Positions 28,546 through 41,457 of a DNA stretch of 64,000 bases are shown piece by piece (position 1 is the stretch's first letter; the number at the start of each line of letters is the position of its first letter). The position numbers were made by a program, and so were the translations under genes. Origin of the DNA: an uncultured Spartobacteria bacterium (GTDB lineage Bacteria > Verrucomicrobiota > Verrucomicrobiia > Chthoniobacterales > Chthoniobacteraceae). Where the stretch lies: NCBI GenBank assembly GCA_903882875.1, contig CAIRYQ010000015.1:124001-188000 (forward strand), given 5' to 3'. The notes below the pieces were generated by a model. That model did not search any database, was not told the DNA's origin, and was given only the letters and a program-made list of their open reading frames with translations.

Positions 28546-28838
28546 CCCCTTAGCTAGACTGAGTCGCAGCCGCACCGCAATCCCGGCGTCGCCCGCCCGC
28601 GCATGAAAATGTCGGGTGGGGGCGCGGTACGGATGCCCGTTCCGGCCCGGACGCTGACGGCTCTCCGCAAAAGATCCCTGCCCGTCCGGTCGCTTGGCAA
28701 AAAGATAAATCAGGCTGGCAGGAAGGCAGGAATGGAGAGTTCCCGGCCCTCTTTTCCTGATTTCCTGCCTTCCTGATTCGATGCTCCCTCCGAACATCAT
28801 CCAACCGGACAGGCATGATACGGTCACTCCACTGGCTG
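28546..28838. other. Non-coding stretch with a long hairpin
   Basis: No gene was recognised between the lyase start and the tandem repeat. A perfect 14-bp inverted repeat (CAGGAAGGCAGGAA at 28719-28732 and its complement at 28762-28775) forms a hairpin with a 29-base loop, built from the CAGGA-type words also seen around the GxxExxY gene. The promoter of the lyase is presumably here. Confidence 0.5.
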
Positions 28839-29216
28839 TCCGCTCCCGCCGTGCGCTTGTCTGCTCCTGCCGTGCGCATGTCCGCTCCCGCCGTGCGCCC
28901 GTCCGCTCCTGCCGTGCGCATGTCCGCTCCCGCCGTGCGCCCGTCCGCTCCCGCCGTGCGCTTGTCTGCTCCTGCCGTGCGCATGTCTGCTCCCGCCGTG
29001 CGCCCGTCCGCTCCCGCCGTGCGCTTGTCTGCTCCTGCCGTGCGCATGTCTGCTCCTGCCGTGCGCATGTCTGCTCCTGCCGTGCGCATGTCTGCTCCTG
29101 CCGTGCGCATGTCTGCTCCTGCCGTGCGCATGTCCGCTCCCGCCGTGCGCATGTCCGCTCCCGCCGTGCGCTTGTCCGCTCTCGCCGTACGCTTGTCTGC
29201 TCTCGCCGTGCGTTTG
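28839..29216. repeat. Minisatellite: 18 tandem copies of a 21-bp unit
   Basis: The unit is TCCGCTCCCGCCGTGCGC followed by ATG, TTG or CCG. It recurs 18 times without interruption, with T/C changes at fixed places. Because 21 is a multiple of three and the unit lacks stops in most frames, heptapeptide-repeat open frames appear on both strands (SAPAVRM on plus; DMRTAGA on minus). None has a good start, domain or flanking coding sequence, so the tract is annotated as DNA repeat only. The last copies diverge (GCTCTC in place of GCTCCC), as expected at the old edge of an expanding array. Confidence 0.9.
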
Positions 29217-29324
29217 TCCGGCGAAACCGAGCACACGAAAAATGGTGAAAAACGCCTGTTTTCGCCATTTTCCTGAAAAACCGCTGCTTATCCGCCCGTC
29301 TGAGCACGAAAGGCCCCGGTAAAT

Positions 29325-39619: not shown

Positions 39620-39796
39620 ATGCCTGAGCGGACGCAAAAACCAACCGGCCCCGCGCCATGGGAGCGCAAACAGGGCGACGGCGACGGCCCGAAAGCCCCC
39701 GACGTGAAGAAGCCCGACACGAAGAGCATCCTCGAGCGCATGCGCCGCGTGGATCCCGATCAGGCGCGGCGCTACCGCCAGCGCACGGGGCAGTGA
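39620..39796 (+). CDS. ubact: UBact (Pup-like prokaryotic ubiquitin-like modifier)
   Basis: The 58-residue product is hydrophilic, lacks cysteine and hydrophobic core, and ends in Arg-Thr-Gly-Gln. The N-terminal half is Pro/Lys/Gly/Asp-rich and disordered-looking (PAPWERKQGDGDGPKAPDVK). The C-terminal half has the ILERMRRVDPDQARRYRQ segment followed by the terminal GQ. These features match UBact, the Pup-like modifier described in some Gram-negative phyla, which is attached to target lysines through its last residue. As in Pup, a terminal Gln would need deamidation to Glu before ligation. Proteasome subunit genes follow directly, which strongly supports the identification. Neither the ligase nor the deamidase is in the window. 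Confidence 0.9.
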   Translation: MPERTQKPTGPAPWERKQGDGDGPKAPDVKKPDTKSILERMRRVDPDQARRYRQRTGQ

Positions 39797-39802
39797 AATT
39801 TT

Positions 39803-39992
39803 GTGACTGGTGATTGGTGACTTGTGACTGGTAGCTGCACCGCACACCGATGAACTCCCCATTCTCCATGCACACACCCGCTGCTCTCTCCGGCAACGGG
39901 CCCACCGATTTCCCTGGCATCCTCCGTCATCACGGTCTCGCGCCGCAGCCGCCGGCTCACACGCCAGTCACCGGTCACCATTCACCAGTCAC
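39803..39992. repeat. 190-bp element with 29-bp imperfect inverted ends, between ubact and prcB
   Basis: The left end (39803-39831) is made of GTGACTGGTGATTGGTGAC-type words. The right end (39964-39992) is its reverse complement with three mismatches. The right end lies in frame inside prcB and encodes propeptide residues 39-47, ending 14 bases before the catalytic threonine codon. A related element is at 45847-45963. Confidence 0.75.
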
Positions 39993-40674
39993 GCCCACGC
40001 ACGCGACCACGATCCTCGCGTTCAAATTCGCCGACGGCGTGCTCGTCGCCGGTGATCGCCGCGCCACCGCGGGCAACGTGATCATGTATGACCGCGCGGA
40101 CAAGGTGCTGGAGATCGATCGCCACTCGCTCATGGCCATCGCCGGGGTTCCTGCGACCGCTTGGGAAATGGCTCGCGTGCTCGAGCACAGCTTCCATTTT
40201 TTCCGCCGCACGCAACTCGCCGAGATGAGCCTCGAGGGAAAAGTGCGCGCGCTCTCGAAGCTGCTGCGCGATAATCTCGGCCTCGTGCTTCAGGGCGTCG
40301 GCGTCGTCGTGCCGATCTTCGCGACGTTTGACACCGCCGCGGGAATCCCGCGCGTGTATTTCTACGATCCGATGGGCGCGCAATTCGAGGCCGCCGACTT
40401 CGCCGCGACCGGCAGCGGCAGCCCTGCTGTGCGCGCCGTGCTGCATCACGAAAACACCTACGCGCGCAAACCGCTCCGCAAACTCAAAGCCCCCGAAGCT
40501 GTCCTGCTCGCCCTGCGCGCGCTCGACACCGCCGCCGAAAGCGACTCCGCGACCGGCGGCGTGGATCGCCGTGCGCGCGTTTTCCCGATTGTGAAACTGA
40601 TCACGCGCAAAGGCATCGAGACCCTGCCCGAGTCAAAGCTCGCGCGGCTGTACAAGGCGAACCTCGCAGACTGA
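39850..40674 (+). CDS. prcB: 20S proteasome beta subunit
   Basis: PrcB is the proteolytic subunit of the bacterial proteasome. The mature enzyme should begin at Thr53 (THA/TTILAFKFADG), giving an Ntn-hydrolase active site. Counting from Thr1, Asp17 (AGDRRAT) and Lys33 (ADKVLEID) are both in place, so the subunit is predicted active. Residues 1-52 form a Pro/His-rich propeptide to be self-cleaved. Part of it is encoded by a dispersed repeat. ATG at 39850 is used; ATG at 39868 would shorten the propeptide by six residues. The gene follows ubact by 53 bases and precedes prcA by six. Confidence 0.93.
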   Translation: MNSPFSMHTPAALSGNGPTDFPGILRHHGLAPQPPAHTPVTGHHSPVTPTHATTILAFKFADGVLVAGDRRATAGNVIMYDRADKVLEIDRHSLMAIAGVPATAWEMARVLEHSFHFFRRTQLAEMSLEGKVRALSKLLRDNLGLVLQGVGVVVPIFATFDTAAGIPRVYFYDPMGAQFEAADFAATGSGSPAVRAVLHHENTYARKPLRKLKAPEAVLLALRALDTAAESDSATGGVDRRARVFPIVKLITRKGIETLPESKLARLYKANLAD

Positions 40675-40680
40675 CGCGCC

Positions 40681-41457
40681 ATGCACGAAGAACCATTCCG
40701 CTGGGTCGAGGCCATCGCGAACCGCCGCGAGTACATCGAGGATCAGCTCGCGCCGGGCAGCCCGATCGTCGCGCTTGGGTTTCGCGACGGCATCTTGCTT
40801 TTCACGCTCAGCCGCGAGCGGCAGAAGATTTTTGAAATCTACGATCGCATCGCGCTCGGCGGCATCGGGCATCCCGGTGACCTGGAGCGATTGCGCCTCA
40901 CTGCCATCGAACTGGCGAGCACGGAGGGCTTCGCGCGTTCGGCGGATGATGTCGCGCTGCGCCGCCTCGCGAACTACTCGCTCTCGCCCGCGCTGAAGGC
41001 CGCGTTCGAGCAAATCTACGGACCGCCGTTTCTCGCGCGATTGCTCTTCGCCGAACTCGGCCGCGGCGCTGCGCCGAATCTTTTCCTGCGGCTCGACTAC
41101 GACGGCTCCATCCGAACGAACGGCGGCAGCTTCGCCCGGACGTTCGAGGATTTTGGCGTCATCGCTGGAAAACAGAACGCGATCACGCAGATGGAAAGTT
41201 TCCTGCGCGCGCAGAAGCACTCCGGATTGAGCCTCGCAGACACGCTGCATCTCGCTGCGCGCACCTGGAGCGTCGGCCATCTCGCGCTTTCCGCAGAGCC
41301 GGATGCCGCCCTGCCTGATGCGGCGCGCGCAGAAGAGCACCTTCGCGAGCAGCTCGCACACGCGAGTGTCGAGGCTGCCGTCCTCGAAAAGGATGCGCCG
41401 CTCGCCGCGACCTATCGTGCGCTCGCCGATGATGAGGTGCGCGCGATCCTGCTGTGA
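40681..41457 (+). CDS. prcA: 20S proteasome alpha subunit
   Basis: The 258-residue protein has no catalytic threonine and corresponds to the outer-ring alpha subunit that gates the chamber. Recognisable segments are an N-terminal helix (WVEAIANRREYIEDQLAPG), the strand SPIVALGFRDGILLFTLS, IFEIYDRIALGGIGHPGDLERLR and RLLFAELG. It is closest in pattern to actinobacterial PrcA. It begins six bases after prcB, so the two are co-expressed for 1:1 assembly. The ATPase ring that would dock on its surface (Mpa/ARC) is not in the window. Confidence 0.9.
   Translation: MHEEPFRWVEAIANRREYIEDQLAPGSPIVALGFRDGILLFTLSRERQKIFEIYDRIALGGIGHPGDLERLRLTAIELASTEGFARSADDVALRRLANYSLSPALKAAFEQIYGPPFLARLLFAELGRGAAPNLFLRLDYDGSIRTNGGSFARTFEDFGVIAGKQNAITQMESFLRAQKHSGLSLADTLHLAARTWSVGHLALSAEPDAALPDAARAEEHLREQLAHASVEAAVLEKDAPLAATYRALADDEVRAILL

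Follow-up and report, generated by a model that had tools for sequence, protein, structure and literature searches.

A probably complete UBact (Pup-like) proteasome system with dispersed genes in an uncultured Spartobacteria bacterium

The window analyzed here, a stretch of 64,000 nucleotides (G000:C15:124001-188000) from the draft genome of an uncultured Spartobacteria bacterium, contains a short Pup-like reading frame followed directly by the genes for two proteasome subunits, with no ligase, deamidase or ATPase gene alongside. The question is whether these three genes belong to a complete tagging and degradation system and, if so, where the remaining components are encoded. The results presented below make us confident that the locus supplies the modifier and the core protease to a complete proteasome system of the UBact (Pup-like) type, whose genes are dispersed. 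The kind of system is already known: a verrucomicrobial (Methylacidiphilum) proteasome neighbourhood has been on record since 2008 (PMC2474590), and UBact in Gram-negative bacteria is cited in PMC12751074 as having been described in 2017 (Lehmann et al. 2017). It differs here in a new arrangement of the genes and in the distinct tail of its ATPase. A literature search on proteasomes in Spartobacteria found nothing relevant.

The modifier module and its enzymes

The 58-residue frame, with the C-terminus ...YRQRTGQ, scored 84.8 bits against the NCBIfam model NF033388 (cut-off 35, E 3.4e-24) and 82 bits against the Pfam UBact family PF20513 (cut-off 27.8), whereas a comparison of UBact with solved structures gave 0 matches even at E 10. 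The frame is kept in 43 of 97 relatives' genomes, which excludes a chance open reading frame. GTDB genomes were searched with an alignment of UBact sequences, giving 364 matching stretches, and 80 of these relatives were kept; nearly all of the GTDB relatives are titled Verrucomicrobia, Spartobacteria, Chthoniobacterales or kin.

By analogy with Pup ending in GGQ, conjugation of UBact would need prior deamidation of its C-terminal residue. In the readable ones of the named loci, this residue is Gln in 60 and Glu in 16; both types are present within genus g9, and genomes with the Glu type still carry Dop-family genes. Such alternation among close relatives suggests that the requirement for deamidation is easily gained or lost.

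The prcB gene begins 53 nt past the end of ubact, and its product scored 175 bits against TIGR03690 and 98 bits against the Pfam Proteasome family PF00227. A propeptide of 52 residues (encoded at 39850-40005) precedes the codon of the catalytic Thr1 (40006-40008); the mature protein would start with Thr1-Thr-Ile, and Asp17 and Lys33 are kept. From these conserved residues, PrcB is predicted to be an active-type beta subunit. A second prcB with its own propeptide was found in two genomes of genus g26 (G059:C519, locus L075; G081:C44, locus L068), with no ubact in the stretch read, and may encode an alternative beta subunit.

The prcA gene starts 6 nt after prcB and encodes a divergent protein, which scored 79.6 bits against TIGR03691 (E 2.3e-22), below the cut-off of 139, and matched the PrcA sequences of Rhodococcus and M. 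tuberculosis in the PDB. An AlphaFold2 model built from a 24-sequence alignment (mean pLDDT 78, pTM 0.82) has an N-terminal helix at residues 6-23, as in alpha subunits, and the best PDB matches of the model in Foldseek were M. tuberculosis proteasome structures (E 6.6e-15). Sequence and model both point to a 20S alpha-subunit fold. Lys49 is invariant in the 24 sequences and aligns with a Lys of the solved actinobacterial PrcA, which we take to sit in the activator-tail binding pocket. Profile scores, residues and the PrcA model thus agree with the sequence-only reading, which had described a UBact-proteasome operon with a Gly-Gln modifier, a predicted active beta subunit and an alpha subunit in consecutive genes.

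Locations of the six system genes (window positions for ubact, prcB and prcA; contig and position for the others)
Gene	Location	Strand	Predicted product	Support
ubact	39620..39796	+	58-aa Pup-like modifier, C-terminal Gly-Gln	NF033388, PF20513
prcB	39850..40674	+	20S proteasome beta subunit	TIGR03690, PF00227
prcA	40681..41457	+	divergent 20S proteasome alpha subunit	TIGR03691, PDB sequence matches, AlphaFold2/Foldseek
pafA	C114:12639-13940		PafA ligase	PF03136 (396 bits), TIGR03686
dop	C121:41416-42786		Dop deamidase	TIGR03688
arc	C42:143150-144649		ARC/Mpa ATPase	TIGR03689

The same reading had reported the partners as missing from the neighbourhood, and had suggested a system split over the genome or working with unusual partners. 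No ligase, deamidase or ATPase is encoded among the adjacent genes, but all three were found elsewhere in the genome (a 5.78-Mb, 129-contig draft, 96% complete, with 1.92% estimated contamination): two Pup_ligase-family (PF03136) genes, scoring 535 and 396 bits against a cut-off of 25, and one ARC gene, each on a contig of its own. Each of the four loci lies at least 12 kb from its contig ends, which in this draft sets a lower bound of 25 kb on the distance between any two of them.

The C114 protein scored 318.5 bits against the PafA model and 280.8 against the Dop model, below the equivalog cut-off; it aligns from its N-terminus with the solved PafA and has no Dop-loop. The profile models separate PafA from Dop, unlike a sequence comparison with the solved structures (217.5 versus 216.6 bits), and on this basis the protein was assigned as PafA. 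The C121 protein scored 471.8 bits against the Dop model (cut-off 492.3) and 365 against the PafA model, and the solved Dop aligns with it over the Dop-loop region. The motifs GhExE and NG[AG]RxYxD are kept in both proteins. ARC scored 444.5 bits against its model (cut-off 504.75), with residues 22-558 aligning to full-length Mpa; a weaker AAA match on C11 (133 bits) was rejected as ARC, as it covers only part of the AAA domain. A search for Bpa (PF10759) gave no match in this genome, and none in the control genomes either. PafA, Dop, ARC, PrcB and PrcA of this genome all score under the curated NCBIfam equivalog cut-offs, whereas UBact is above both of its own; a UBact above both curated cut-offs and homologues of the five other proteins are what the genome has in common with the UBact system of Gram-negative bacteria. 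The genes here are dispersed over four loci. As far as these comparisons tell, PafA, Dop and ARC are ordinary homologues, the C-terminal tail of ARC being the one unusual feature. The component set therefore appears ordinary, with its six genes in four unlinked loci: the proposed split holds, and the unusual partners find no support. Neither outcome that would have counted against the earlier reading was observed, as the 58-residue frame is kept in relatives and the genome has homologues of both PafA and Dop.

It is conceivable that the contigs with the enzyme genes came into the assembly by contamination or faulty binning, and that the organism has no such enzymes or uses other partners. The many contigs and the estimated contamination of the draft would allow this, but the assemblies of five same-genus relatives (G001, G002, G003, G006 and G008) likewise contain ARC and a pair of ligase-family genes at a distance from ubact, and across G000, G003 and G004 the PafA/Dop scores run in parallel with PrcA identity. 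We consider an artefact highly improbable.

The Pup gene has been reported to adjoin a PafA-family gene invariably (Iyer et al. 2008, PMC2588565). Here ubact has no such neighbour, as both ligase-family genes lie on separate contigs, 25 kb or more away, and the dispersed loci are an exception to this adjacency rule. The rule fails across an order of bacteria, and searches based on gene context would score such genomes as incomplete.

Gene order and joint loss among relatives

A comparison of gene order in relatives showed that all six genes, arc-dop-ubact-prcB-prcA-pafA, are clustered in one run at locus L235 and at four loci of closed genomes from another family of the class (L137-L140), which we infer to be Methylacidiphilum and kin. 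Locus L183 has the order dop-ubact-prcB-prcA-pafA, with arc elsewhere. The majority of the remaining loci consist of ubact-prcB-prcA with no enzyme genes alongside. In most genomes where ARC was located, arc and dop share a contig and lie within about 6 kb of each other, while pafA is close to ubact only in G024, G028, G042 and G066. In the genus of the window, arc and dop are separated in several species and still adjacent in G009; furthermore, prcA lies away from ubact-prcB in three same-genus genomes (G001:C52, G002:C3 and G006:C4), so that the alpha/beta pair itself is split. Dispersal has thus continued inside this genus.

In a PrcB+PrcA tree, the clustered loci branch outside a single clade of 83 rows that holds the dispersed loci (SH-aLRT 97), although the tree was built by a fast search and comes with a program warning about long branches where the clustered and dispersed loci join. 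This placement, together with the likeness to the actinobacterial order (PMC3511204), suggests that the genes were most likely clustered at first and dispersed later. The Methylacidiphilum neighbourhood (PMC2474590, PMC2588565), from the same phylum, has the same protein families in a cluster, whereas the genes are dispersed here. With the actinobacterial Pup-proteasome (M. tuberculosis; PMC8223512, PMC3511204) the present system shares (i) the component set, (ii) the position of pup/ubact directly upstream of prcB-prcA, (iii) a Dop-loop in Dop and not in PafA, and (iv) a C-terminal Gln needing deamidation; it differs in having arc, dop and pafA elsewhere and in the C-terminus of ARC, as described below.

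Co-occurrence of five components was examined in a sample of 97 relatives' genomes, where UBact was found in 43, PafA/Dop in 44, PrcB in 44, ARC in 39 and PrcA in 44. All five were present in 37 genomes and none in 52, leaving eight intermediate. PafA/Dop accompanied UBact in 42 of the 43 UBact-bearing genomes, as compared with two of the 54 genomes devoid of UBact; the Fisher p-values calculated for co-occurrence ignore relatedness and are descriptive only. UBact-negative genomes occur beside UBact-positive ones in genera g1, g3, g9 and g12, and every component is absent from G007 (g1, the same genus as the window, 96% complete), G020, G022, G026 and G086. Since unlinked genes are all absent from these UBact-negative neighbours, the pattern fits the joint loss of one pathway and argues that the scattered genes, kept or lost as a set, form one system. 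Repeated co-loss of unlinked genes constitutes independent evidence for a six-gene system in Gram-negative bacteria.

The scatter of the genes could also be taken as a sign of relaxed coupling to the proteasome, with UBact serving mainly for signalling or another non-proteasomal fate. The enzyme genes are not beside ubact, some actinobacteria retain pupylation without a proteasome (PMC8223512), and in one 96% complete genome (G011:C66, locus L141) UBact, PrcB and PrcA were found but PafA, Dop and ARC were not. The UBact frame of G011 has glycine-rich insertions, is intact and ends in GQ, and a decayed UBact was therefore discarded as an explanation; a core module without visible enzymes can thus occur, unless the assembly has a gap or a binning error. 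On the other hand, ubact and prcB are adjacent wherever both were located, the presence and absence of all components coincide, also in the window's genus, and the active-site residues of PrcB are conserved. We regard a mainly non-proteasomal role as unlikely, and prefer a UBact that feeds the proteasome encoded beside it.

Predicted pathway and the ATPase tail

In such a system, for which we base every biochemical step (conjugation, deamidation and degradation) on actinobacterial work, Dop would deamidate the C-terminal Gln of UBact to Glu, and PafA would phosphorylate that Glu and ligate UBact to lysines of target proteins. Hexameric ARC would catch the tagged protein via its N-terminal coiled coil, unfold it and thread it into the PrcA/PrcB 20S particle for degradation; Dop could also remove the tag. 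For docking on the 20S gate, ARC would use a C-terminal Val/Ile pair instead of GQYL.

Opening of the 20S gate by M. tuberculosis Mpa depends on a C-terminal GQYL, a motif that replaces the archaeal and eukaryotic HbYX (PMC8142254). We read the ARC tails of the own genome and of L006, L098-L127, L137-L140, L270 and L271, and the results showed that all 37 distinct C-termini, from both verrucomicrobial lineages, end in [VI][VI] and that none has GQYL. The endings are VI in 20, VV in 11, II in four and IV in two; Tyr is absent from the last four residues in all 37. The ARC of the present genome ends in SPIV and thus has no mycobacterial-type gate-opening motif, although this motif may not be defining beyond the actinobacteria, and the clustered L137-L140, the presumed Methylacidiphilum lineage, have a Val-Val tail. 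The stretch ahead of the Val/Ile end varies between 15 and 21 residues, and an ending so constant behind a linker of changing length suggests a role as docking anchor.

We tentatively propose, as a reading that may well prove wrong, that the verrucomicrobial UBact ATPase opens the 20S gate by this minimal hydrophobic Val/Ile pair, which would add a third docking signal to HbYX and GQYL, and that the six genes of the system have gone from an operon to a scattered arrangement but are still retained or lost together. The tail poses a simple, testable question as to how bacterial ATPases open proteasome gates.

Neighbouring genes and repeats

The genes flanking ubact-prcB-prcA were confirmed as those of YhbY and of LysM and GYF proteins. 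GYF domains bind proline-rich peptides, and the GYF and LysM neighbours could be functional parts of the system, for example with a GYF-domain reader of the proline-rich N-terminus of UBact; in many loci of the order, one or both genes are found immediately upstream of ubact in divergent orientation. However, many genomes devoid of any UBact component have a GYF gene (same-genus G007 and G005; genera g17, g24 and g33), several UBact-bearing genomes have it on a different contig, and it was not found at the clustered loci L137-L140. As the GYF gene occurs in UBact-less genomes, we rejected GYF and LysM as partners; a functional part for them is very doubtful, and the adjacency looks like synteny only.

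An inverted pair of GTGACTG-type heptamer arrays, with arms of about 29 nt, lies at 39803-39832 in the ubact-prcB gap and at 39964-39992 in the region coding for the PrcB propeptide. The arms are predicted to fold strongly into a hairpin (z -4.1), but in this species alone; the corresponding region of three same-genus loci (L157, L159 and L161) folds no better than shuffles. A regulatory hairpin between ubact and prcB was therefore dropped as a candidate, and the element is treated as a heptamer-array pair. Locus L159 has a weaker pair, different in sequence but in much the same two positions. Elsewhere in the window, 18 head-to-tail copies of a 21-bp unit, TGTCCGCTCCCGCCGTGCGCA, occupy positions 28837-29220.
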